A stretch of 44,606 nucleotides of DNA from Butyrivibrio sp. (GTDB taxonomy: Bacteria > Bacillota > Clostridia > Lachnospirales > Lachnospiraceae): NCBI RefSeq assembly GCF_017433805.1, contig NZ_JAFRGN010000020.1:71514-116119 (forward strand). The letters are read 5' to 3'. The position numbers and the translations under genes were made by a program. Shown here in pieces: positions 2,557 through 20,448 of the stretch; position 1 is the first letter of the stretch, and each line of letters begins with the position of its first letter. The notes under the pieces were generated by a model. It did no database searches. It saw nothing but the letters and a program-made list of their open reading frames with translations, and had not been told where the DNA came from.

Positions 2557-4155
2557 ATGGCACAGAATGCTAAGGTTACAGTGCACCCTGCCTACAAAGT
2601 GGGTGACATTTCAGATAGGCTGTTTTCAGCTTTTTTGGAGCCGATTGGAACTATGGTTAATGGAACCATGTTCAATCCCAAGCATCCAACAGCTGATGAA
2701 CAGGGCTTTAGAAGGGACTTCATCGATGCTCTTAAGAAAACTAAGGTTCCAGCTGTAAGACTTCCCGGTGGTAACTTCGTTTCTGCCTGGCAGTGGAAGG
2801 ATTCTATTGGACCAAGGGATCAGAGAAAGGTTCATCTTGATCCGGCTTGGCACCAGTATATTCTCAATGATGTTGGACACGACGAGTATCTTCAGTGGGC
2901 TCAGAAGGTAGGAACAGAAGCTCTTTATACTGTTAATATGGGAACAGGAACCATTCAGGATGCAATGGATCTTGTAGAATACACTAATCACGAGGGTGGA
3001 ACCTACTGGTCAGACCTTCGTAAAAAGAATGGTCATGAGGATCCATACAATGTTAAGATGTGGTACCTCGGCAACGAGATGGATGGCCCATGGCAGCTTG
3101 GTGCCTGGGACAAGAATCCTGAAGGCTACGGCCACAAGGTTTTGGAGACTTCCAAGGCTATCAAGTGGATTGATGAGACAATAGAGACTGCAGTATGCGG
3201 ATCTTCAGCTCCTTTCATGGAGGGCTTCCCAGAGTGGGATGAGTCAGTTCTTAACAAGTGCTACGACGTTGTCGACTATGTATCAGTTCATCACTATCAC
3301 AGTGCACCTCCCGGAGATATCAAGGCTCTTCTTGGCGGCGCTTTATACTACGAAGATTTCATTAATAATGAAGTTGCTATGATCGATTACGTGGCTTCCA
3401 AGCACAGATCACCTAAGAAGGTCATGATCTCTTTTGATGAGTATGGTGCAATGATCAGACCTAATATGCCACTTCACCCTGGCTATGGCAGATACAACAT
3501 GGCTAGAAACCACTATCGTTTCGACCCTGAGAGAAGATATATTCTGCACGATCCTGACAACATGCCAGAGCGTCAGTTCCCTGGTGGAGATATGCTTCAT
3601 GCGCTTTCTATGGCATCAGTTCAGTTGGCACTTCTTCGTCATGCTGACAGAGTTAAGATTGGCTGTATGACTGGCGGACTTCCAGCTCTTGCAGCATCCA
3701 ACCATGACCATGTATGGAGATCAGCTTCTCACTACGTATTCATGCAGCTCCTTGAGTACGCTAAGGGAGTTTCTCTTGATACCAAGGTTGAGAGTGAGAC
3801 CTACGATATGCCTGGCTATGCTATCGAGGATACTTCACAGTACACAGGTAAAGAGGGCGTTAACTTCATCGATGCAGCAAGTGCCTGGGATGAGGACAAC
3901 AAGAGAGTTACTGTATTTGTTATTAACAGAAACGAGGAGACTGAGTATCCTCTCACAGTAGATCTCAAGGGCTTTGCCGGCTACAAGCCTGTGGCAGCAT
4001 ATAAGCTTCATACAGATGATATGGACCTCAAGAATACATATGAGGACGACGAGAAGCTTATTCCGGTAAAAGAGGAAGACTATACCTTTGAAGATGGCGA
4101 GCTTAAGCTTCATGTTAAACCACTTTCCTGGAATGTGTATGTATTTGAAGCGTAA
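2557..4155 (+). CDS. abfA: GH51 alpha-L-arabinofuranosidase, intracellular
   Basis: A 532-residue glycoside hydrolase family 51 enzyme that removes terminal alpha-L-arabinofuranosyl units from arabino-oligosaccharides by a retaining mechanism. GNEMDGPWQ carries the acid/base (E174) and ISFDEYG carries the nucleophile (E295), both in a (beta/alpha)8 barrel; the C-terminal ~150 residues form the usual beta-sandwich. There is no signal peptide, so it works in the cytoplasm on imported oligomers. The start at 2557 has GGAGG nine bases upstream; an ATG at 2550 is out of frame. It stands alone here, 11 kb from the arabinan locus at 13.3-20.4 kb, but should act downstream of it. Confidence 0.95.
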   Translation: MAQNAKVTVHPAYKVGDISDRLFSAFLEPIGTMVNGTMFNPKHPTADEQGFRRDFIDALKKTKVPAVRLPGGNFVSAWQWKDSIGPRDQRKVHLDPAWHQYILNDVGHDEYLQWAQKVGTEALYTVNMGTGTIQDAMDLVEYTNHEGGTYWSDLRKKNGHEDPYNVKMWYLGNEMDGPWQLGAWDKNPEGYGHKVLETSKAIKWIDETIETAVCGSSAPFMEGFPEWDESVLNKCYDVVDYVSVHHYHSAPPGDIKALLGGALYYEDFINNEVAMIDYVASKHRSPKKVMISFDEYGAMIRPNMPLHPGYGRYNMARNHYRFDPERRYILHDPDNMPERQFPGGDMLHALSMASVQLALLRHADRVKIGCMTGGLPALAASNHDHVWRSASHYVFMQLLEYAKGVSLDTKVESETYDMPGYAIEDTSQYTGKEGVNFIDAASAWDEDNKRVTVFVINRNEETEYPLTVDLKGFAGYKPVAAYKLHTDDMDLKNTYEDDEKLIPVKEEDYTFEDGELKLHVKPLSWNVYVFEA

Positions 4156-7483: not shown

Positions 7484-7588
7484 GCTTTTATACTTTTTTA
7501 ACAATAGTTATAAACGTAAAATGGTACAATTATATTGTGTGGCACTAGCTAGATAACTAGAAATTAGTGCAGAGGAGGAGAAATACAA

Positions 7589-10500
7589 ATGTACCATTTT
7601 ATGAAACGATCTATTTCGTGTGTTTTGGTAAGCGCTATGTTAGCTGGTAGTGTTCTCGTAAGCTGCGGAAGCGCGCAGGGACCGACGAGAAAAGTCGACC
7701 AGATAGTTGCCAAAATGTCTATGGATGAGAAAATCTCTCAGATGATAATTCCCGCGATCAGAACCTGGAATGAAGAAAATGTGACAGATCTTTCTGCAGT
7801 ACCTGAGCTTAAGGAAGCTTTACAAAAGCATCAGTATGGCGGAATCATTCTGTTTGGAGCAAATATCAAAGGCGCAGAGCAGGTTACAAGACTTATTGAT
7901 GATCTGCAGACCAACAATCTTCAGAATCAGACGGCTTCTACACATATCCCGTATCTGACTCCTGTTGATGAGGAGGGCGGTATCGTAATCCGCTTAAATA
8001 CTGGAACAAGAATGAATGGAAATATGGCAATTGGCGCTACAGCAGATTCTACCGCCAATGCTGAGACTACAGGCCGAATTCTTGGTGAAGAGCTGGCGGC
8101 AGTTGGCTTTAACACCGATTATGCACCGGATATCGATGTTAACAATAATCCATCGAATCCTGTTATAGGCACCAGGTCTTTTTCCGACGATCCGGAACTT
8201 GTGGCTACACTTGGAAGTGCCTATGCCAAGGGACTCGCGGCTAGCAACATCATCGCAACCTATAAGCATTTCCCAGGCCACGGAGATACAGCGGTGGATA
8301 GCCATATAGGAACACCTTCTGTTGAAAAGACCTATGAAGAGCTTAAGGCAACAGAGCTGGTTCCATTCAAAAAAGTCATAGAAAACGGCGCTGACATGAT
8401 AATGACAGCCCATATCACATATCCTCTGATCGATGAGGAAAAGACCTTTGGAGATGGCACAAAGGGCTTCTACCCGGCAACCATGTCCAAGAAGATGATC
8501 ACAGACATCCTCAGAACAGACCTTGGTTTTAACGGAGTGGTTGTAACTGATGCTCTTGAAATGGATGCGATCCGCACAGCCGGTCTTGTACCAGGTGAGG
8601 AAAATTCCACTGAATATTGGATAAACATTGCTAAAGAGGTTATAAATGCAGGCGTTGACATGCTTCTTTTGCCTGTGGATATGAATAATCCTGAGGCTGT
8701 AACTTTTTATGATGACTATATTGCAGGTATTGCGTCCAAGGTTAAGTCTCGTGAGATCAGCAAGGCCAGGATTGATGAGAGTGTTAAGCGTATTCTGACA
8801 CTTAAGGCTAAATACGGAATATACGATCTAGATGGAAATCAGGGCGAGGCTACTAGCGTTGAGGACCGCGTGGCAAGGAGCAAAGAGGTAGTTGGCTCCA
8901 AGGCTCATCACGATACTGAGATGGAAATCGCAAGACAGGCTATAACCGTAGTGAAGAACGATAACAATACGCTTCCAATAACTGGATCTACCAAGAAGGT
9001 CTTTTTCCTGGGAAGACAGGCTGGAGATGCTACAGCAATAAATCTGGCGGCAGATGAGCTGATGGCCGAGGGCCTTATAGACGATGATGCGACAGTTTCA
9101 GTTGATTATTACTACGATTCATCGGCAGATGTTAAGCTTCACTATACAGATGAGGTAAAAGAGAAGGTTTCTGCGGCGGACGTTGTTGTAGGCTTTTCCT
9201 ATGCATCAGGAAACGCAGCTCTTGATAAAGAAAATCCGCAGTACATAGCAGTTACCAGTGCTATAGAGGATACTCACAAGGCAGGTGGCAAGTTTGTTCT
9301 GATCAGTGAGAACCTTCCTTATGACGCTGCTATCTATCAGGATGCGGATGCAATTGTCCTGGCATATCTAGGCTCTGGACTAAATGTTGATCCTACCAAG
9401 GACAAAGAGAGCGAAACAGGAATGACAGCCAGAAACGCTAACATTGTGGCTGCCATCAAGACAGCCTTTGGCGCCAATGCTCCTAAGGGACATCTTCCTG
9501 TAAATGTTCCTGTTGTGGAAGAACAGGCAGATGGAACGCTGAAGTATGGAGATAGTTTTTTATATGAAAGAGGCTTCGGACTTTCTTTTGAGGACAATGC
9601 TAACGTAAGCGCCCTTAGGGAATACTGGACAGAAGGGGCAGAACCGGCAGAGAGCCTTAGAAACTACGTAACTAAGATTACTGATAAGAGCGATACTGCC
9701 AACTATATTCCTAAGGAAGATCGAATCGCAGTGTTCGACATGGATGGAACCCTTACCTGCGAGACTTTCTATACCTACTATGACACTATGATGTTCATCA
9801 AATACTGCCTGGAGGATCACCCTGAGAGAGTATCTGATGAGCTTAAGGCAGCAGCAAAAGAGATAAAGCCTGGATATACAGCTGGAGAAGAGCTTGCAAG
9901 AAACTTTGCCAGGGCCTTTGCTGGAATGACGGTTGAAGAGCTCTACGACTATGCTGTGGAATTTGGTCAGAAGGAAACTGACAGCTTCCAGAACATGCGC
10001 TACATCGATGGTTTCTACCTTCCAATGGTAGAGGTGGTCAAATACCTCTATGACAATGATTTTACCATCTATGTTATCAGCGGAACTGAGCGTACAACTA
10101 CAAGAGCTATCGTAGCTAATTCACCTATCAGCGAGTATGTTTCGCCAGCCCATGTTATTGGTACAGAGTTTGAGGTCAAGGTAAAGGGCTATGAAGATGT
10201 TTCTTCCAACATGGACTTTAAGTACAAGAACGGCGACGAGCTTGTTATTACAGGAGAATTCATACAAAAGAACTTAAATGCCAATAAGTCCATCTGGATT
10301 GAAAGAGAAATCGGGCAGCGCCCAGTGCTTGCTTTTGGTAACAGTGGAAGTGATACAAGTATGATGAACTATGTACTTGATGACAGGAACCCTTACCCAT
10401 CACAGGCGTACATGATCGTAGCTGATGACGCCGTTCGTGAATGGGGCGCTCAGAACTGGGAAGAGAAGTCTGCTTCCTATAGAGAGCAGGGCTATGTGCC

Positions 10501-10603
10501 TATCTCAATGAAGAATGATTTCCTCAAGATCTATCCTGACACTATCAAGAGATCTGAAGTGCAGTATGTGGAGGAAGAAGAGGAAGCTGAAGACGCAGCT
10601 TAA
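7589..10603 (+). CDS. GH3 N-acetylhexosaminidase (NagZ-like) lipoprotein fused to a HAD phosphatase
   Basis: A 1004-residue surface lipoprotein; the start follows AGAGGAGGAG. Residues 1-26 are a lipoprotein signal ending in LVSC (C26). Residues about 35-410 are a GH3 barrel of the NagZ type: KHFPGHGDT at 226-234, the Asp-His dyad D237/H239 and nucleophile D321 in VVTDALEMD. Residues about 440-660 resemble the second GH3 domain. From about residue 700 a HAD phosphatase follows: AVFDMDGTLT (D717, D719), VISGTE and GNSGSD, resembling phosphoserine-phosphatase-like enzymes. NagZ-type enzymes cleave beta-GlcNAc, for example in peptidoglycan fragments. The pairing suggests one exported protein that both cuts a glycan and removes phosphate, which is inference. 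It ends in an acidic tail (EEEEEAEDAA). Confidence 0.9.
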   Translation: MYHFMKRSISCVLVSAMLAGSVLVSCGSAQGPTRKVDQIVAKMSMDEKISQMIIPAIRTWNEENVTDLSAVPELKEALQKHQYGGIILFGANIKGAEQVTRLIDDLQTNNLQNQTASTHIPYLTPVDEEGGIVIRLNTGTRMNGNMAIGATADSTANAETTGRILGEELAAVGFNTDYAPDIDVNNNPSNPVIGTRSFSDDPELVATLGSAYAKGLAASNIIATYKHFPGHGDTAVDSHIGTPSVEKTYEELKATELVPFKKVIENGADMIMTAHITYPLIDEEKTFGDGTKGFYPATMSKKMITDILRTDLGFNGVVVTDALEMDAIRTAGLVPGEENSTEYWINIAKEVINAGVDMLLLPVDMNNPEAVTFYDDYIAGIASKVKSREISKARIDESVKRILTLKAKYGIYDLDGNQGEATSVEDRVARSKEVVGSKAHHDTEMEIARQAITVVKNDNNTLPITGSTKKVFFLGRQAGDATAINLAADELMAEGLIDDDATVSVDYYYDSSADVKLHYTDEVKEKVSAADVVVGFSYASGNAALDKENPQYIAVTSAIEDTHKAGGKFVLISENLPYDAAIYQDADAIVLAYLGSGLNVDPTKDKESETGMTARNANIVAAIKTAFGANAPKGHLPVNVPVVEEQADGTLKYGDSFLYERGFGLSFEDNANVSALREYWTEGAEPAESLRNYVTKITDKSDTANYIPKEDRIAVFDMDGTLTCETFYTYYDTMMFIKYCLEDHPERVSDELKAAAKEIKPGYTAGEELARNFARAFAGMTVEELYDYAVEFGQKETDSFQNMRYIDGFYLPMVEVVKYLYDNDFTIYVISGTERTTTRAIVANSPISEYVSPAHVIGTEFEVKVKGYEDVSSNMDFKYKNGDELVITGEFIQKNLNANKSIWIEREIGQRPVLAFGNSGSDTSMMNYVLDDRNPYPSQAYMIVADDAVREWGAQNWEEKSASYREQGYVPISMKNDFLKIYPDTIKRSEVQYVEEEEEAEDAA

Positions 10604-10649
10604 ATATAAACTAAGGTTGATGTCGATTGTATGTAAAGGAGACTTTAGT

Positions 10650-11690
10650 ATGAAGAAAAAAGTTACAGTAATAGTTATGACTCTGATGATGGCATTTATC
10701 TTTTTGTGTCCGGCGAAGATCACCGCCAAGGCTGTAAAGGTGCTTCCTTTTACCAGCCCTATTGATTATTCACAAGCTGGGAACTGGCTGTATGACGGAG
10801 CTTATCCGGAAAATGAGGTGGATGTCTTTATGATCGCACCTACAGTAGACATTTTCAGCGAGAGCAACTGCGCTATAACTCCTGAGTATAGAACAAACTT
10901 CAGAAATGCGATGAATCAGCAGCAGGCTCTTTATGCTAAGACAGCAAGGATATATGCGCCATATTACAGACAGGCATCTATCAAAGTTTATGAAATGACG
11001 GATCCTGTAGCCAAGGAGCAGGCTATGAAGAATGCCTATATGGATGTGTCTGCAGCATTTAAGTATTATCTGGAACACAAGAATAATGGAAGACCACTTA
11101 TGCTTGCGGGCTTTTCTCAGGGAGCTGATATGTGCTACAGACTACTGGAAGAGTACTATGGTGGGGACAGCGAAAGAGCCGTGAGTCTTAGGAATAATCT
11201 GATAGCAGTTTATGCCATTGGCTGGAATATGACAGAGGATATGATATCCAAATACCCACAGATAGTTCCTGCAAAGGGCGAGACAGATACTGGCGTTGTC
11301 ATAAGCTTTGACTGCGAAGATGGTAATGTAACTGATACGATCATCACTCCTAAGGGCACCAAGGCTATATCCATAAATCCACTTAACTGGAGAACAGACA
11401 GCGTTGTTGCGGATAAGAGCCTCAATAAAGGATTTGTCATGCAGGACAGCGCAACAGGTGCAATCCTGTCAGTTGAGCCTGGTAAGTACGGCGCCTACAT
11501 TGATCCTCAGAGGGGCACGCTCATAGTTACCGGAATTGATTCAGCTGCATTTCCACCTATCCTGGATGTTTTCCCACAGGGAAGCCTTCACATATATGAC
11601 AATTTCCTGTTCTTTGTAAATCTTCAGGAGAATATTCAAAAGAGAACAGAAGCTTATATGCAAAAAAAAGCAGCTTCAAATGCAGCTTAA
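10650..11690 (+). CDS. Secreted DUF3089 alpha/beta hydrolase
   Basis: A 346-residue protein with an N-terminal signal sequence (MKKKVTVIVMTLMMAF, then AKA). The start at 10650 has AAAGGAG eight bases upstream; a longer frame from 10515 overlaps the preceding gene and is not used. VDVFMIAPTVD and MLAGFSQGAD are hallmarks of the DUF3089 family, with the serine of GFSQGA as likely nucleophile of an alpha/beta hydrolase. The substrate is unknown, probably an ester. It follows the GH3-HAD gene by 46 bp and likely forms an exported unit with it. Confidence 0.85.
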   Translation: MKKKVTVIVMTLMMAFIFLCPAKITAKAVKVLPFTSPIDYSQAGNWLYDGAYPENEVDVFMIAPTVDIFSESNCAITPEYRTNFRNAMNQQQALYAKTARIYAPYYRQASIKVYEMTDPVAKEQAMKNAYMDVSAAFKYYLEHKNNGRPLMLAGFSQGADMCYRLLEEYYGGDSERAVSLRNNLIAVYAIGWNMTEDMISKYPQIVPAKGETDTGVVISFDCEDGNVTDTIITPKGTKAISINPLNWRTDSVVADKSLNKGFVMQDSATGAILSVEPGKYGAYIDPQRGTLIVTGIDSAAFPPILDVFPQGSLHIYDNFLFFVNLQENIQKRTEAYMQKKAASNAA

Positions 11691-13368: not shown

Positions 13369-13383
13369 TTAGGAGGATTGACT

Positions 13384-14859
13384 ATGAAAAGAAGGGTTTT
13401 AAGTTCTGTATTGGCTATGCTTGTTGGTGCTTCTGCACTAATGGGATGCTCAACGACAACTGTTGAGGAAGCAGGGGAAGCTTCAGGCGACAATCAGGCA
13501 GCTCAGGCTACCGAGGCAACTAATGAGACAGAGTCTTCTTCAACAACTCTTACCGGAGAAGGTGAGGAGACACTTCATGTATTTCTGTACATGCAGGAAC
13601 ATGAGAAAGAGATCTACCAGAAACTTATAGATCAGTTCGTAGAGGAACACAAAGATAAGGTTAAAGAAATAGTATTCGAAGTAACTACTCAGGATGAGTA
13701 CAATCAGAAGATGATTGCCAGCATGACAGCAGGTGATATGCCGGATGTATTCTATGTTGGACCTGCAGCAGTTCGCTCATATGTAGATAATGGTTACATC
13801 ATGCCACTTGATCAGTACGTTGATGATGCTACAATCTCCAGTATCTGGGGAACAACACAGGAAATCTACCGTTATGACGGCAAGAACATTGGAAGCGGTT
13901 CTCTTTACGCATTCCCTAAGGATCTTTCCTGTTTCGCGTTTGCTTATAACCAGGATCTGTTTGATGCAGCCGGACTTGACTATCCAGATCCTAACAAGCC
14001 ATACACTTACGATGAATTCGTAGAAGTATGTAAGGCACTTACAAAGGACACTGATGGCGATGGAGAAATTGATCAGTGGGGCGTTGCTAATGCTGACCAG
14101 TGGGGAATGACTCCTTTCCTTTATTCAAACGGAGTTAAGTTCCTTAATGATGATATGACAAAGGTTAACGTTGCTAACAACAAGCAGCTCATCGAGGCTC
14201 TTACATTCTACACAGATCTTACAAAGAATGGTCTTACACCTTCAGTTGAGCAGGATACAGCTCTTGGCGGATACCAGAGATGGCTTGATGGACAGGTTGC
14301 TTTCTATGCATGTGGTACATGGGATGTAGCAGCATTCATGGATGACAACACATTCCCATATAAGTGGAATCTTTGCGGATGGCCTGTAGGACCTTCTGGT
14401 GATGGAAGATCACACACATGGATGGGATCAGTTGGTTACTGTGTATCAGCAACAACCAAGTATCCTGACCTTTGCGCTGAACTCGTTGCTAAGCTTTCAA
14501 CAGATGCTGATGGACAGAGAGCTGTTTCCGGAATCACAACTGGAGCTTCTATCCAGCTTCCTAACATCGTTGACCTTGCTTATGGCGAATTCAAGGATGC
14601 AGTAAACAATGGCACAGTTCCTTATGCATCAAATGTAGATGTTATCTTCGGATACTTCGACGGCAATGATCACTATGCAGCAGCTCTTCAGGAGATGGAT
14701 TACACATACAACTCTGAGTGGTTCACACCATTCTGGTCAGGTGTATTCAATATCAAGAACGGCGACATTTCTGTAGAGGATTATGTAGCACAGGTTGAGC
14801 CTGAGATGCAGGCAGCTCTTGACGAAGCTATCGAGCTCCAGAATTCAGCTACAAAGTAA
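13384..14859 (+). CDS. Sugar ABC transporter substrate-binding lipoprotein (family 1)
   Basis: A 491-residue extracellular solute-binding lipoprotein. The start at 13384 follows AGGAGG by seven bases; the TTG six bases earlier is too close. The signal ends in lipobox LMGC (C22), followed by a Glu/Ala/Thr linker (to about residue 55). The mature part has the family 1 binding-protein pattern: TVEVTTQDEYNQK-like segment, MTAGDMPDVFYVGP, and DTDGDGEIDQWG, a calcium-loop-like acidic segment. It should deliver oligosaccharides to the two permeases that follow; arabino-oligosaccharides are suggested by the GH43 genes downstream. Codons are strongly biased, suggesting high expression. Confidence 0.92.
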   Translation: MKRRVLSSVLAMLVGASALMGCSTTTVEEAGEASGDNQAAQATEATNETESSSTTLTGEGEETLHVFLYMQEHEKEIYQKLIDQFVEEHKDKVKEIVFEVTTQDEYNQKMIASMTAGDMPDVFYVGPAAVRSYVDNGYIMPLDQYVDDATISSIWGTTQEIYRYDGKNIGSGSLYAFPKDLSCFAFAYNQDLFDAAGLDYPDPNKPYTYDEFVEVCKALTKDTDGDGEIDQWGVANADQWGMTPFLYSNGVKFLNDDMTKVNVANNKQLIEALTFYTDLTKNGLTPSVEQDTALGGYQRWLDGQVAFYACGTWDVAAFMDDNTFPYKWNLCGWPVGPSGDGRSHTWMGSVGYCVSATTKYPDLCAELVAKLSTDADGQRAVSGITTGASIQLPNIVDLAYGEFKDAVNNGTVPYASNVDVIFGYFDGNDHYAAALQEMDYTYNSEWFTPFWSGVFNIKNGDISVEDYVAQVEPEMQAALDEAIELQNSATK

Positions 14860-14878
14860 TAAATTTTTGACTACTATA

Positions 14879-14913
14879 GAGCCCCTCTTCAAGACTGGAG
14901 GGGCTCGTATTTT
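14879..14913 (+). terminator. Hairpin between binding-protein and permease genes (attenuator-like)
   Basis: GAGCCCCTC at 14879-14887 pairs perfectly with GAGGGGCTC at 14898-14906 and is followed by GTATTTT. The U tract is short, so it probably causes partial termination or protects the 3' end of the binding-protein message, giving more binding protein than permease, as is common in CUT1 operons. Confidence 0.7.
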
Positions 14914-14938
14914 AAGAAAGCAAAAGGAGAGCAGTAGT

Positions 14939-15859
14939 ATGGCATCTCATAAAAGAGTTAAGACTAAAATGTCTGCCATGGCTAAAAGAGAAGAGCGCTG
15001 GGCGTGGCTTTTTATAGCTTCCCCATTCCTGGGCTTCATGCTTTTCATGGCATACCCAATTGTCTTCGCAGTTATAGCCAGTGCCAGCAAATGGACAGGC
15101 ATAAACTCCCTTTGGGGAAATATGGTAGGCTTTGGTAACTATATCAAGATTTTATCTGATGTTAAGTTCTGGAGAGCGATGGGCACCACCATTATCTATA
15201 TGATCGGTATTCCTATAGGAATGATTCTTGGAATGCTGGTAGCTATGGGACTTAACAGGAAGATCCCTGGCAAAAGAGTTCTCACAACAATGTACTATGT
15301 ACCTGTAGTTTCATCACTTGTTGCGGTTTCTATTCTTTGGGCATGGGTATTCAACTATGATTACGGCCTTTTGAATGGAATCTACAAGTTCCTCACAGGA
15401 ACACATGGCCCTAACTGGCTTGGTGATGAAGTAATGGTAAAGATATCCCTTATCATCTTCATGGTATGGAAGGGACTTGGAGGAACTATTATTCTCTACC
15501 TTGCAGGACTTCAGAATATTCCAAGAGATTATTATGAGGCAGCCATGATCGACGGAGCAGGAAGCATTGCCAAGTTTATGAACATTACACTTCCTCTTTT
15601 GTCACCGGTAACCTTTTATGTTCTTATCACCTCACTTATTGGAGGTTTCCAGGTATTCGTAGAAGTCCAGGTTATGACTCCTTCGGGCGGTCCTAACTAT
15701 TCGTCTGCGACAGTAGTATTCTATCTGTTTGAAAAAGCCTTTACTAACGGACAGCTTGGATACGGAAGTGCAGTAGCAGTTATTCTTGCGATCATTATCT
15801 TCATTATTACTGCCATCAATTTCTGGGGACAGGATAAATGGGTTAAGACTATAGATTAA
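14939..15859 (+). CDS. Sugar ABC transporter permease 1 (MalF-like)
   Basis: A 306-residue CUT1-family permease with about six transmembrane segments. The start at 14939 follows AAAGGAGA; an open frame extends upstream to 14795 but overlaps the binding-protein gene. The cytoplasmic EAA loop YYEAAMIDGAGSIAKF, which docks onto the ABC ATPase, is present near residue 200. It pairs with the next permease to form the channel. No ATPase gene lies in the cluster. Confidence 0.94.
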   Translation: MASHKRVKTKMSAMAKREERWAWLFIASPFLGFMLFMAYPIVFAVIASASKWTGINSLWGNMVGFGNYIKILSDVKFWRAMGTTIIYMIGIPIGMILGMLVAMGLNRKIPGKRVLTTMYYVPVVSSLVAVSILWAWVFNYDYGLLNGIYKFLTGTHGPNWLGDEVMVKISLIIFMVWKGLGGTIILYLAGLQNIPRDYYEAAMIDGAGSIAKFMNITLPLLSPVTFYVLITSLIGGFQVFVEVQVMTPSGGPNYSSATVVFYLFEKAFTNGQLGYGSAVAVILAIIIFIITAINFWGQDKWVKTID

Positions 15860-15872
15860 GGAGGTGAGACAT

Positions 15873-16763
15873 TTGGACGTAGCAATTAAGAAAAAACGTG
15901 GAAATAAAGACTATCAGACTGACCGTGTCTTATCTTCAAAAGAAAAATTCTGGAATATTGTAATATTTATAGTGCTGGCTCTTTTTGCATTTACAATGGT
16001 GTTCCCTCTCATTTATATGGTAGCTACATCATTCATGACCAAGAACCAGATTTTATCAGGCTCACTTACAATCATCCCAGATCCAGTTCTCATTGGTAAG
16101 TATTCGGAAGTGCTTAAAAAAGGCCAGTTCGTAACTGGTATCTTCAATACTATTAAGGTAGAAATACCTGTACTTATTATCGGTGGTTTTACATCATCAT
16201 TGGCAGCATTTGCATTTGCCAAAATGAATTTCAGAGGTAAGAACATCCTGTTTATGGCATTACTTGCAACAATCATGATCCCTTTTGCGGTAGTTATGAT
16301 TCCTCAGTATGTTCTTTTTACCAAGCTTCATTGGACTAATTCACTTGCTCCACTTATTATTCCAGGATGCTTTGGAAATATCAGTATGATATTCTTCCTC
16401 AGACAGAATCTTTACAGTATTCCTTCAGAACTGATGGACGCTGCCAAGATTGATGGATGCAATTACTTTGGAATTTACTACAAGATTTTCCTTCCTCTTA
16501 TGAAGGGTGCCCTTGGAACTCAGCTTATGCTATGGTTCATGGGAATCTGGAATGATTATCTTGCACCAACTATTTTCCTTAGAAGCGAGAGAAACTGGAC
16601 TCTTCAGGTTGTTATCAGATCTTTTAACTCATATTATGCGATACAGAGTGACTATGCGCTTATCATGGCTGCATCAGTTATTGCTATGTTGCCGACACTT
16701 GTACTGTTCTTCCTGTTCCAGAGAGTTATTATTGAGTCCATAGCCATAAGTGGAATAAAATAA
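15873..16763 (+). CDS. Sugar ABC transporter permease 2 (MalG-like)
   Basis: A 296-residue CUT1 permease, partner of the preceding gene. The likely start is TTG at 15873, eight bases after GGAGG; the GTG at 15864 overlaps that site. There are six hydrophobic segments, and the EAA loop reads DAAKIDGCNYFGIYYKIFLP. It begins 13 bp after the previous stop, so the genes are tightly coupled. The rare TTG start may tune its translation. Confidence 0.93.
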   Translation: MDVAIKKKRGNKDYQTDRVLSSKEKFWNIVIFIVLALFAFTMVFPLIYMVATSFMTKNQILSGSLTIIPDPVLIGKYSEVLKKGQFVTGIFNTIKVEIPVLIIGGFTSSLAAFAFAKMNFRGKNILFMALLATIMIPFAVVMIPQYVLFTKLHWTNSLAPLIIPGCFGNISMIFFLRQNLYSIPSELMDAAKIDGCNYFGIYYKIFLPLMKGALGTQLMLWFMGIWNDYLAPTIFLRSERNWTLQVVIRSFNSYYAIQSDYALIMAASVIAMLPTLVLFFLFQRVIIESIAISGIK

Positions 16764-16796
16764 GATATAAACTATTAGGATTGAGGAAAAGATATT

Positions 16797-17723
16797 ATGT
16801 TACATATTAAATCTCTCGATGAAGCAAGGAATGTATTTAAGGCCCTTGGCTCAGATATACGTATTGAGATAGTTAAGGTCCTTTTAAATGAAAGTGGGCT
16901 TAGCATGAATGAGCTTGCGGAGCGACTTAACATTACTAATGGAGCGCTTACAAGCCATATCAAGAAACTAGAGGAAACCGGAATTGTCATGGTTTCGTCG
17001 GATGCGACAGGACATGGCAATCAGAAGGTGTGCTCAGTTCATCTTGATAAGATTCTCTTTGAGCTTCAGGATAAGCCACAGAATGAAAACATTTATACAT
17101 CTGATATTAAGGTTGGACATTTTTCGGATTTCTCTGTGTATCCGACTTGTGGTCTTGCATCAGGTAACAGGCTGATTGGAGAGGTTGATGACAACAGGTA
17201 TTTTGCTCATCCTGACAGATATGAGGCAGATATTCTCTGGTTTACCAGAGGCTTTGTAGAATATACAATCCCTAATTTTGTTCCTCATAATCAGGTGATT
17301 GATGAGATATGCATTTCTGTAGAGCTCAGTTCAGAAGCGCCTGGAGTTAATAATGTTTGGCCTTCAGATATTTATTTCTATTTGAATGAGACACTTCTTG
17401 GAACCTGGATTTCTCCTGGAGATTATGGAGACGTAAAGGGTATTTTCACACCAGACTGGTGGTTCCCTAACTGGAATCAGTATGGACTGCTCAAGATGAT
17501 AGTGGTCAATCACAAAGGAACCTTCATAGATGGACTTAAGATTTCAGATGTGAACATAGATCAGTTTGGCCTGACACCCAAGAGCCTTATTAAATTCAAA
17601 CTTGAAGTACCTGAGAATGCCGAGCATGTAGGAGGGCTTACTATTTTCGGAAAAGGATTTGGTAACTACAATCAGGACATTATAGTCAAGATGGCTTATA
17701 GTCCAAAAGAACTGATAATATGA
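16797..17723 (+). CDS. ArsR-type winged-helix regulator with large C-terminal ligand-domain candidate
   Basis: A 308-residue regulator. Residues about 5-90 form a winged helix of the ArsR type: VFKALGSDIRIEIVKVLL, then the recognition region LNITNGALTSHIKKLEETG. No cysteine pair for metal sensing is visible in the helix. Residues about 100-308 are a separate, mostly beta domain with many aromatics (WFTRGFVEYTIPNF, DWWFPNWNQYG), suggesting a jelly-roll or carbohydrate-binding fold. Classical ArsR proteins are about 100 residues, so two thirds of this protein are extra. Set between the permease and GH43 genes, it is likely the local sugar-responsive regulator; that role is inference. Confidence 0.8.
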   Translation: MLHIKSLDEARNVFKALGSDIRIEIVKVLLNESGLSMNELAERLNITNGALTSHIKKLEETGIVMVSSDATGHGNQKVCSVHLDKILFELQDKPQNENIYTSDIKVGHFSDFSVYPTCGLASGNRLIGEVDDNRYFAHPDRYEADILWFTRGFVEYTIPNFVPHNQVIDEICISVELSSEAPGVNNVWPSDIYFYLNETLLGTWISPGDYGDVKGIFTPDWWFPNWNQYGLLKMIVVNHKGTFIDGLKISDVNIDQFGLTPKSLIKFKLEVPENAEHVGGLTIFGKGFGNYNQDIIVKMAYSPKELII

Positions 17724-17732
17724 TAGCTTAAG

Positions 17733-17772
17733 CGCCGCGCCTTTTCATAAATACAGATGAGACGCGGCGTTT
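17733..17772 (+). terminator. GC-rich hairpin after the regulator gene
   Basis: CGCCGCG at 17733-17739 pairs with CGCGGCG at 17763-17769, with further pairing inside (TCAT/ATGA). Only three T follow, so it is either a weak terminator or a processing/stability hairpin between the regulator and GH43 genes. Confidence 0.55.
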
Positions 17773-17799
17773 ATTAAAGACAGCAGGAGAGATGTTTTA

Positions 17800-19443
17800 A
17801 TGATAAAAAAGCTAAAAAGACCTGCAGCATTTTTTTTGACTGCGGGATTACTGATAAATACAATTACCGGATGCGGTAGTAGTGCATCCAACCCAAATGG
17901 GAGCGAAGCTACGGCAGAAGGGAGTGAAGCTACTGTGGAAGCAAGCGAAGCAAATGTGGAAGAAATGAATTTTGATGCTGACATGTCTCAGATAGAGACA
18001 GGAAGTCTTAACGCAGGATCTTCAGTTCATGATCCCTCTATAGTAGTAACAGATGATAAGTATTACATTGTTGGAACTCATATGACCTTTGCCTACTCAG
18101 ATGACCTTAGGAAATGGACAATCAAGGGAAATGGCTACTCAGCTACTAACATGATATTCGGAGATCTTTTCAGTGACGAAAGTGGAGATGTATTTAAGTT
18201 CACTGGTAAAAAAGATAGCGTGGTTCCTACAGATGATAAAAAGTGCCACCTGTGGGCACCTGATATTATTTATAACAAGGCTAATGGCTTATACTACATG
18301 TACTACTGCACCTCATCTACCTGGAACGCATCAACTCTGGAGTTTGCTACTTCTGAGACTATAGATGGCAAGTATGAGTATGGTAAAAGCCTCATTTATT
18401 CCGGACTGACAAGATACAACATTGATGAGACAAACGTCTGTGACTATGTAGACAAGGATTATGCACTTAAGAATTACGTCAAGCTTGATGGAACCTATAA
18501 CTTCAATGAATATCCTAACGCCCTTGACCCTGCAGTATTTTACGACAAGGACGGCAAAATGTGGATGGTATATGGCTCCTGGAGCGGAGGTATTTTCCTT
18601 CTTCAAATCGATGAGTCAACTGGCGATGTCATCCACCCTGAGGCAGATCCTGATAACAACGTAGATGCTTACTACGGTAAAAAACTGTTAGGCGGCGGAC
18701 ACAAATCTATTGAGGGACCTTATATTCTCTATGATCCAGACAGTGATTACTATTATCTTTTTGTTTCTTATGGTGGATTGACAAGTGATGGTGGCTACCA
18801 GATAAGAGTATTCAGATCCAAAGAGGTTGATGGCGATTATCTTGATATGAACGATAAAAAGCCTGATTTCTATGACAACGATCATTCAGGCTTTGGCCTT
18901 AAGATAAGTGGAAATCACATGCTTCCATCCCTTGAAACTGCCTATAAGGCCACAGGCCACAACTCAGCCATGATAGACAAGGATGGCCGAAAATATGTAG
19001 TCTATCATACAAGATTCGAAGGAAAGGGAGAGTACTTTGAGCCAAGAGCCAGACAGTATTTCTTAAACGAAGAGGGCTGGCCGGTAATGCTTCCATACAT
19101 TACAAATGGCGAGACGATTTCTGAAAGTGGCTATACAGCTGATGAAATAGCAGGCAGATACTACCTTGAGGAACTTGGACTTGATATCAGTGGCGGTTAC
19201 AAGGATCCTTCGATTATTTATCTGGGAAAAGATGGAAAGGTATACAGTAAGGCTTCTGATGACACGATTTCAGAGGGAACTTATACAGTTACTGATGGAA
19301 AATACTATGTTCATATATCCATTGATGGTATAGAATATAGCGGTGTCTTTTGCAAGCAGCTTGATGAAAGTGGACGAGAAGTATTTGTCTTTTCCGCCTG
19401 CGGACAGAACAAGACAATATATGGTGTTAAATACAGTGAATAA
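17800..19443 (+). CDS. GH43 endo-alpha-1,5-L-arabinanase lipoprotein (Abn2-like)
   Basis: A 547-residue surface lipoprotein that should cut alpha-1,5-arabinan by inversion. Signal peptide with lipobox ITGC (C25) is followed by three imperfect repeats of GSEAT(A/V)E type as a linker. The GH43 five-bladed propeller spans about residues 70-440: catalytic base D78 in VHDPSI, the pKa-modulating Asp in ALDPAVFYD, the acid Glu in SIEGPYI and the GHNSAM motif. A C-terminal beta domain (about residues 445-547) matches the plan of Bacillus Abn2. AGGAGAG precedes the ATG. Surface location suits the first step of arabinan use, upstream of the ABC importer. Confidence 0.92.
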   Translation: MIKKLKRPAAFFLTAGLLINTITGCGSSASNPNGSEATAEGSEATVEASEANVEEMNFDADMSQIETGSLNAGSSVHDPSIVVTDDKYYIVGTHMTFAYSDDLRKWTIKGNGYSATNMIFGDLFSDESGDVFKFTGKKDSVVPTDDKKCHLWAPDIIYNKANGLYYMYYCTSSTWNASTLEFATSETIDGKYEYGKSLIYSGLTRYNIDETNVCDYVDKDYALKNYVKLDGTYNFNEYPNALDPAVFYDKDGKMWMVYGSWSGGIFLLQIDESTGDVIHPEADPDNNVDAYYGKKLLGGGHKSIEGPYILYDPDSDYYYLFVSYGGLTSDGGYQIRVFRSKEVDGDYLDMNDKKPDFYDNDHSGFGLKISGNHMLPSLETAYKATGHNSAMIDKDGRKYVVYHTRFEGKGEYFEPRARQYFLNEEGWPVMLPYITNGETISESGYTADEIAGRYYLEELGLDISGGYKDPSIIYLGKDGKVYSKASDDTISEGTYTVTDGKYYVHISIDGIEYSGVFCKQLDESGREVFVFSACGQNKTIYGVKYSE

Positions 19444-19464
19444 AACTTTTTTGTGAGGAGAATT

Positions 19465-20448
19465 ATGATTGAAACCAGACCCAGAAATGGAGTGATTACA
19501 GAGTATAACAAACCTTTTATAGAGCAGAGAGCAGATCCATATGTGTACAGACATACAGATGGATGCTACTATTTCACAGCATCTGTTCCAGACTACGATA
19601 AGATTGTACTTAGGAGGAGCGATACACTTACAGGCCTTCAGAGCGCTGAGGAAAAGACAATCTGGCTTAAACACGAGTCAGGAGATATGTCCAAACACAT
19701 TTGGGCGCCTGAGCTTCACTATCTTGATGGCAGGTTCTATATTTATTTTGCTGCATCAAGAGAAGAGGAAAAATGGAGACTTCGCCCATACATATTGGAG
19801 TGTCAGGGCCAGGATCCTATGAATAATCCATGGGTGGAGAAAGGTATGATCCAGGCAAGCGATAATGATATCTATTCCTTTAGGGCATTCAGCCTTGACT
19901 CAACTATCCTGGAGCACAAAGGTGAGTATTACTACATCTGGGCTGAGAAAGTCAGTGTTGGTGTCGGAATATCCAACCTCTATATCGCCAGAATGGAGTC
20001 TCCAACTAAGCTTGCGACTGAGCAGATTCTTTTGACAACGCCTGATTATGATTGGGAGAGAGTAGATATCTGGGTTAATGAGGGTCCCGCAATACTCAAA
20101 AAAGATGGTAAAATATTCCTGACATATTCTGCCAGCGCTACAGGCGAATGCTATTGCATGGGTATGCTCAGCATTGATGAGGACGCGGATATCCTTGATC
20201 CAAGAGCATGGAAAAAGGAGAAAAAGCCTATCCTTTCTTCTGACAGAGAAAAAGGCTTCTACGGCCCGGGCCACAACAGCTTCACTAAGCTTCCCGATGG
20301 AAGAGATGTTTGCGTATTCCACGCAAGAACCTATCTTGAAATCAAGGGAGATCCACTCTACGATCCAAATAGGCACACCATGCTCATGGAAGTTAAGTGG
20401 GATGAAAATGGCTGGCCAGTATTTGACTACAACAACGTAATACACTAA
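19465..20448 (+). CDS. GH43 exo-alpha-1,5-L-arabinofuranosidase-like enzyme, intracellular
   Basis: A 327-residue single-domain GH43 protein without signal peptide. The ATG at 19465 follows GAGGAG. Catalytic residues by motif: D24 in RADPYVYRH (base), D145 in FSLDSTILE (pKa modulator), E206 in WVNEGPAIL (acid), and GPGHNSF late in the propeller. The pattern resembles GH43 subfamily 26 exo-arabinofuranosidases that release arabinose from arabino-oligosaccharides. It lies 21 bp after the endo-arabinanase gene, so the surface and cytoplasmic steps are co-expressed. Confidence 0.9.
   Translation: MIETRPRNGVITEYNKPFIEQRADPYVYRHTDGCYYFTASVPDYDKIVLRRSDTLTGLQSAEEKTIWLKHESGDMSKHIWAPELHYLDGRFYIYFAASREEEKWRLRPYILECQGQDPMNNPWVEKGMIQASDNDIYSFRAFSLDSTILEHKGEYYYIWAEKVSVGVGISNLYIARMESPTKLATEQILLTTPDYDWERVDIWVNEGPAILKKDGKIFLTYSASATGECYCMGMLSIDEDADILDPRAWKKEKKPILSSDREKGFYGPGHNSFTKLPDGRDVCVFHARTYLEIKGDPLYDPNRHTMLMEVKWDENGWPVFDYNNVIH

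Follow-up and report, generated by a model that had tools for sequence, protein, structure and literature searches.

This work concerns a 44,606-nucleotide stretch of DNA from Butyrivibrio sp. of the family Lachnospiraceae (contig NZ_JAFRGN010000020.1, positions 71,514 to 116,119; hereafter the window) and a gene within it whose product joins a glycosidase of family GH3, of the NagZ type, to a HAD phosphatase. In our judgment, the fusion is probably genuine and specific to its lineage, and the two surface lipoproteins so joined would act side by side at the cell wall. Each part is a surface enzyme of a known kind; their union in one chain is unusual and was seen in one examined genome. No description of a GH3-HAD arrangement was found in the titles, abstracts and passages of the literature searched, a search that lay outside most subscription journals.

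The fusion protein and its two halves

The gene is one open frame on the forward strand (7589-10603) that encodes 1004 amino acids without interruption. Its features, in window positions, are as follows.

7572..7580, + strand: ribosome-binding-site-like GAGGAGGAG, 5' of the fusion open reading frame
7589..10603, + strand: GH3-HAD fusion lipoprotein, 1004 amino acids, ATG start, TAA stop
7589..7666, + strand: signal peptide with lipobox LVSC and Cys26, read from the sequence
7721..8803, + strand: GH3 N-terminal catalytic domain, residues 45-405 (Pfam PF00933 Glyco_hydro_3, 3.5e-85)
8297..8305, + strand: Asp237/His239 acid-base dyad of the NagZ type, KHFPGHGDTAVDSH (GH3 alignment and sequence)
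8549..8551, + strand: Asp321, GH3 nucleophile (GH3 alignment and sequence)
8942..9586, + strand: GH3 C-terminal domain, residues 452-666, YbbD-like (Pfam PF01915 Glyco_hydro_3_C, 6.4e-9)
9593..9613, + strand: junction, residues 669-675, between the GH3 end and the mature HAD start (alignment with stand-alone relatives)
9614..10600, + strand: exported-type HAD phosphatase module, residues 676-1004 (Pfam, structure model and fold match)
9728..10366, + strand: Pfam HAD core PF12710, residues 714-926 (5.4e-11)
9737..9751, + strand: HAD motif I DMDGT with D717 and D719 (family alignment and sequence)
10079..10081, + strand: HAD motif II, Ser831 (family alignment and sequence)
10286..10288, + strand: HAD motif III, Lys900 (family alignment and sequence)
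10337..10354, + strand: HAD motif IV GNSGSD with N918 and D922 (family alignment and sequence)

Glyco_hydro_3, Glyco_hydro_3_C and PF12710 all score above their curated Pfam cut-offs. An earlier note on this DNA had described an exported lipoprotein whose unbroken frame carries a lipobox at C26, a GH3 catalytic set and a HAD set, and the residues and motifs that it names lie where it placed them. C26, K226, H227, D237, H239, D321, D717, D719, S831, K900, N918 and D922 are all in place, with VISGTE beginning at residue 829 and GNSGSD at residue 917. This combination of domains and motifs is not due to chance.

The closest solved relative of the GH3 half is Bacillus subtilis YbbD (NagZ; PDB 3bmx, 3lk6 and 4gyj), which agrees with the NagZ-type assignment made earlier. 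YbbD, a lipoprotein by its PDB name, is likewise a two-domain GH3 protein; 3bmx aligns with residues 28-660 (E = 1.9e-110), a match that spans both domains and includes the motif KHFPGHGDT..DSH. The Asp-His dyad within KH(F)PGHGxxxxDSH, a motif of the type that appears in the alignment with YbbD, is what we take to be the mark of NagZ/YbbD-type GH3 beta-N-acetylglucosaminidases. D237, H239 and D321 are invariant in a seven-row GH3 alignment, and both the YbbD-like second domain (PF01915) and the lipobox cysteine are present. By its Asp-His dyad, predicted nucleophile and lipobox, the GH3 half is a YbbD-type enzyme as far as sequence can tell. The best NCBIfam match of the protein, NF003740 (beta-N-acetylhexosaminidase), reaches 180.2 bits, under its cut-off of 207, with residues 73-367 matched to a model of 340 positions; this score bars the NF003740 name, not the YbbD-type reading. 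Unlike the fusion protein, YbbD has no phosphatase domain. A passage of a Listeria study describes the use of YbbD as a glucosaminidase on wall fragments (PMC4858229). Three other GH3 matches in the window's genome are 26-34% identical to the GH3 half of the fusion.

The HAD module begins near residue 676 rather than near residue 700 as first proposed, and scores 43.7 bits against the PF12710 cut-off of 27. In a family alignment of 33 sequences, D717, D719, S831, K900, N918 and D922 are invariant (33/33); K900 completes the HAD motif set (DxD, S/T, K and acidic motif IV), which the earlier note had rightly called complete. The predicted structure of the module has a predicted local distance difference test (pLDDT) score of 90.5 and a predicted template modelling (pTM) score of 0.90. 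The module falls outside the HAD-IB subfamily TIGR01488 (15.9 bits against an NCBIfam cut-off of 45), and membership in HAD_2 (PF13419), and with it a MupP assignment, was dropped at 15.9 bits against a cut-off of 23.8. This HAD family is itself exported, contrary to the earlier view that HAD phosphatases of this type are usually cytoplasmic. No second HAD of this type occurs in the window's genome.

Among solved chains to which a function is assigned, phosphorylcholine phosphatase (PchP) of Pseudomonas aeruginosa (PDB 4as2/4as3) is the nearest, at 20% identity; it is also the second-best fold and profile match. PchP is not fused to a glycosidase and, in the passages available on it, has GDTPDSD where the fusion HAD has GNSGSD. 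Of the PchP alkylammonium-site residues (E42, E43 and Y82-Y84), E43 aligns with E725, which is invariant in the family alignment, in a pairing next to a four-residue insertion, and E42 aligns with C724. Another solved relative, the Planctomyces limnophilus HAD hydrolase 4ovy (no function in its title), is a 310-residue chain with no glycosidase.

The junction

In the junction alignment, the three nearest GH3 relatives used stop at LYERGFGLTY, LYERGFGITY or LYERGFGITD, and the window protein runs on past this point as LYERGFGLSF-EDNANVS-ALREYW. The stand-alone HADs L022 and L020 have the matching LTQYW or LSEYW a few residues past their lipobox cysteine. Neither the stop codon of the GH3 nor the signal peptide of the HAD is therefore left, and the mature parts are joined. 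No repeats of at least 14 bases were found in 9300-9900, and the GC content is 0.452 on one side of the junction and 0.447 on the other. The gene occupies 79.1-82.1 kb of contig C14, which extends for another 34 kb or more to its right.

By the terms of the earlier note, its reading would fall if most close relatives proved to be two separate genes and the join a sequencing error. The parts are indeed separate in the relatives examined, and the join is present in one assembly only, the single one examined for the species, as an artefact of assembly or sequencing uniting two genes would have it; however, the GH3 half ends where its relatives stop and the HAD half starts just past the relatives' lipobox cysteine, which makes an error unlikely. 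Since the join is in frame at exactly these points, lacks both the GH3 stop and the HAD signal peptide, shows no repeat and is internal to a long contig, we regard an artefact as very improbable. A frameshift or a chimera was dropped on the junction alignment and the lack of repeats.

Distribution among genomes

The survey for both domains in one chain that the earlier note proposed returned, among 79 genomes of the genus, a match across residues 1-1004 only in the window's own genome, and the neighbourhood proved not to be conserved. Fourteen other genus genomes have a close GH3 (68-76% identity) in frames of 635-736 amino acids, too short to hold the HAD, and the longest other HAD-matching frame has at most 832 amino acids. 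Among the 79 named loci, taken from the best 80 of 245 candidates, none has both halves in one frame. The fusion is lineage-specific and rare.

The HAD family is found in 47 of the 79 genus genomes (E up to 1e-20; G313, G363 and G372 have partial copies only) and in 29 of the 47 near-complete ones. With the window's genome counted each time, wider samples contain it in 23 of 299 genomes (family level, E up to 1e-3), 33 of 392 (order) and 9 of 398 (phylum). The sister of the window HAD is the stand-alone L022, 86% identical, in a quick tree with Shimodaira-Hasegawa-like approximate likelihood ratio test (SH-aLRT) support only. A close GH3 and the HAD co-occur in the genus at p = 0.045 with the window genome, or 0.020 if partial HADs count, both values uncorrected for relatedness.

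Fusion partners among relatives

After removal of short matches and duplicates, 127 distinct rows were kept of 163 with a HAD match and labelled by BLAST. The HAD stands alone in 92 of the 127, three of them cut at the 5' end. The most frequent extension is a C-terminal His_Phos_2-type domain (19 rows), which is glucose-1-phosphatase-like (closest solved chain 6rmr, 8.2e-81). An N-terminal LysM occurs in 4 rows; YkuD, M15 (VanX-like) and a segment resembling the VanY-C39 part of L104 occur in 2 rows each. Acetolactate decarboxylase and GH3 are partners in one row each, the latter being the window's own protein. Other N-terminal extensions account for 4 rows, 3 of them membrane-spanning-like by eye: L162, L163 and L166 carry the HAD behind an N-terminal part of about 220-250 residues, and L163, the one of these scanned, has no Pfam match in its extension. 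Pfam confirmed His_Phos_2 in L024 and L031, LysM in L069, L070 and L161, YkuD in L048 and L160, M15 in L164, VanY and C39 in L104, and acetolactate decarboxylase in L055; the remaining labels, including those of fragment L172 and L217, rest on BLAST. As a separate observation, the L055 protein (L055:262-2121) has a lipobox at its start. Additionally, in L059 (10192-11178) a prephenate dehydratase-domain gene lies directly 3' of a HAD-histidine phosphatase gene.

Of the 35 extended HAD forms, including that of the window, 11 carry wall-active or wall-binding domains. This enrichment is suggestive only, the sample having been picked by similarity to the window protein and without a control family. 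On a HAD tree of 121 of the 127 rows, LysM, YkuD, M15 and VanY show two label changes each, so wall-related fusions seemingly arose more than once. The tree also has 10 label changes for His_Phos_2 and long end branches in 14 rows (the YkuD row L160 among them), which suggests that gain and loss may both be common.

The GH3 half has fused relatives as well. Those 68-71% identical are joined to His_Phos_2 (L009 and L018), prephenate dehydratase (L005) or DUF5648 (L013), and those 36-41% identical to an S66 LD-carboxypeptidase (L154), NamZ (L155) or GH25 (L157). L009 and L018, from Lachnospiraceae metagenome assemblies, resemble the window protein in having the same GH3 lipoprotein type, 68% identical, with a C-terminal phosphatase, but their phosphatase, 44% identical to the L024 domain, is glucose-1-phosphatase-like and unrelated to that of the window protein. 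Two unrelated phosphatases have thus been joined to the same GH3 type.

Three of the GH3 loci deserve mention in their own right. The L005 gene (7896-10790) encodes a GH3 lipoprotein joined to a prephenate dehydratase domain, an exported form of a normally internal biosynthetic enzyme. The L155 gene (3987-6848) combines GH3 and the exo-muramidase NamZ in one chain, pairing two peptidoglycan exo-enzymes. In L019 (1232-4870), the GH3 gene is broken into two parts separated by about 1.5 kb, as an insertion would leave it.

Surroundings and genome context

One neighbouring gene lies directly downstream.

10650..11690, + strand: DUF3089 alpha/beta-hydrolase gene, signal-peptide-like start by eye (Pfam PF11288, 1.3e-45)

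It begins 46 bases past the fusion stop, has its own ribosome-binding-site-like AGGAG at 10637-10641 and is possibly cotranscribed with the fusion gene. DUF3089 is mentioned in connection with a rumen esterase, Est10 (PMC4431682). In L001-L110, and in L001-L083 with L140-L179, DUF3089 relatives near GH3 or HAD were confined to the window and own-genome loci. With no others beside either half in the loci checked, DUF3089 was dropped as a conserved partner, and the earlier suggestion that it could complete the set is not supported.

An arabinan-use cluster surrounds the fusion gene (2557-4155 and 13378-20448), with an alpha-L-arabinofuranosidase, a sugar ABC transporter and two GH43 proteins. 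It was dropped as the pathway of the fusion protein because the GH3 half carries the NagZ-type dyad and, among solved proteins, is most closely related to NagZ/YbbD. Conserved neighbours were also set aside as a clue: of the 83 HAD anchors, 7 have the commonest family nearby and 4 a YkuD-type gene, and of the 30 GH3 anchors 4 have the commonest family nearby, in a set of loci where some genomes appear twice. Scanning for promoters and terminators gave no information, with 10 promoter-like sites where 10.4 were expected.

Elsewhere in the same genome, on contig C29, four LicD-family genes and a WecG/TagA-family glycosyltransferase lie within about 40 kb. There, one LicD directly precedes a gene (L226:2202-4804) for a 604-amino-acid fusion of a nucleotidyltransferase with a CobD-like phosphoamino-acid decarboxylase, whose CobD-like domain scores below its curated cut-off. 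By its domains, this fusion could make a CDP-amino-alcohol for surface decoration. These genes make it probable that the cell produces a phosphorylated surface polymer. Since 68 of the 79 genus genomes, and all 47 near-complete ones, have LicD, its presence does not single out the HAD. MurQ above its family cut-off is absent from the window's genome and present in 9 of the 79. Neither LicD nor MurQ co-occurrence was kept as a clue, LicD being universal in near-complete genomes and MurQ being limited to those nine.

Proposed role and alternative explanations

A cell-wall setting, as the earlier note had supposed, is likely, given that each half has relatives joined to peptidoglycan enzymes or binding domains. 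In the model that we propose, the protein would be anchored on the outer face of the membrane through its lipobox cysteine. The GH3 half would remove non-reducing-end N-acetylglucosamine (GlcNAc) from peptidoglycan turnover fragments in a two-step reaction, with D321 as the nucleophile and D237/H239 as the acid-base pair. With D717 as its nucleophile, the HAD half would carry out a hydrolysis, aided by Mg2+, of small phosphomonoesters at the wall, which may be phospho-amino-alcohols or sugar phosphates. The sites of the two halves probably work alongside each other rather than handing one substrate on, and the gain from fusion would lie in co-anchoring and co-expression.

Several points weigh against this model. 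The catalytic activity of both halves is predicted from sequence, and some HAD partners, namely acetolactate decarboxylase and the glucose-1-phosphatase-like domain, are not wall-related. The nearest HAD relative, L022, shares contig coordinates with the match in G327, a genome without a YbbD-like GH3 at E below 1e-80. At that threshold, co-occurrence of the HAD and a YbbD-like GH3 in the genus is at chance level (p = 1.0), and for the close GH3 it falls to p = 0.075 once the window genome is left out, or 0.035 counting partial HADs, again uncorrected for relatedness. GC content at third codon positions (GC3) is unequal between the halves (0.409 and 0.482). Moreover, since the fusion is in one genome only, selection for the joined form cannot be shown.

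The alternatives concerning the HAD substrate lie inside the proposed model and overlap with it. The HAD may be a broad phosphate-scavenging acid phosphatase whose fusions reflect anchoring and co-secretion only, which we consider unlikely but worth serious attention. Repeated fusion to a glucose-1-phosphatase-like histidine acid phosphatase would fit such a role (19 of the 127 rows by BLAST, with Pfam agreeing in both proteins scanned), as would the fusion of GH3 relatives to the same phosphatase type in L009 (Pfam) and L018 (BLAST); yet wall domains in 11 of 35 extended forms, no control family having been counted, are not what scavenging alone would favour. It is somewhat more doubtful that the HAD is a phosphorylcholine- or phosphoethanolamine-type phosphatase that salvages amino alcohol and phosphate from surface polymers or rumen lipids, with the GH3 as an unrelated passenger. 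The rank of PchP among the fold and profile matches, the pairing of E725 with E43, and the four LicD-family genes, one adjoining the nucleotidyltransferase/CobD-like fusion, argue for it, and a passage on PchP adds that this enzyme also hydrolyses phosphorylethanolamine (PMC3170909). However, the match to PchP is 20% identical, the pairing adjoins the insertion, LicD in 47 of 47 near-complete genomes against the HAD in 29 of 47 amounts to no correlation, and the VanY, M15 and YkuD fusions are left unexplained.

It is conceivable that the two halves share a phosphorylated aminosugar glycan as substrate, as the earlier note suggested, or act on a phosphorylated wall sugar in a coupled reaction. 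In its strict form, the HAD half would take the phosphate off N-acetylmuramic acid 6-phosphate (MurNAc-6-P) or GlcNAc-6-P ends that the GH3 half has uncovered at attachment sites of teichoic-acid-like polymers; we find this improbable. A HAD enzyme that dephosphorylates MurNAc-6-P does exist, namely MupP, described in passages of PMC5371407 as acting on a wall amino sugar; wall-protein fusions among relatives of both halves and the WecG/TagA-family enzyme would also suit this scheme. MupP, however, belongs to a Pseudomonas recycling pathway, and its candidates are annotated as HAD_2 in the same passages, whereas the fusion HAD is an exported PF12710 protein below the HAD_2 cut-off. In comparisons with solved structures, phosphorylcholine phosphatase lies nearer to it than do any of the sugar phosphatases listed. 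The lack of MurQ above cut-off in the window's genome and the unconserved neighbourhood also speak against sequential action. The proposed side-by-side action at the wall remains our preferred reading.

Significance

The fusion gives a functional context to a surface phosphatase family of unassigned substrate. If the coupling is true, it would represent a dephosphorylation step in wall turnover, of which no instance was found in the literature searched. More speculatively, and with rather low probability, the fusion may be one solution to a general job in rumen Lachnospiraceae, that of dephosphorylating the cell wall surface by fusing an exported phosphatase to whichever wall enzyme or binder is available (GH3 NagZ, LysM, L,D-transpeptidase, VanX or VanY), so that here GlcNAc trimming and phosphate removal from the wall or from teichoic-acid attachment points would be coupled in one chain. 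With members of this family repeatedly joined to enzymes or binders of peptidoglycan, a phosphomonoester linked to the wall becomes a substrate that can be tested directly.

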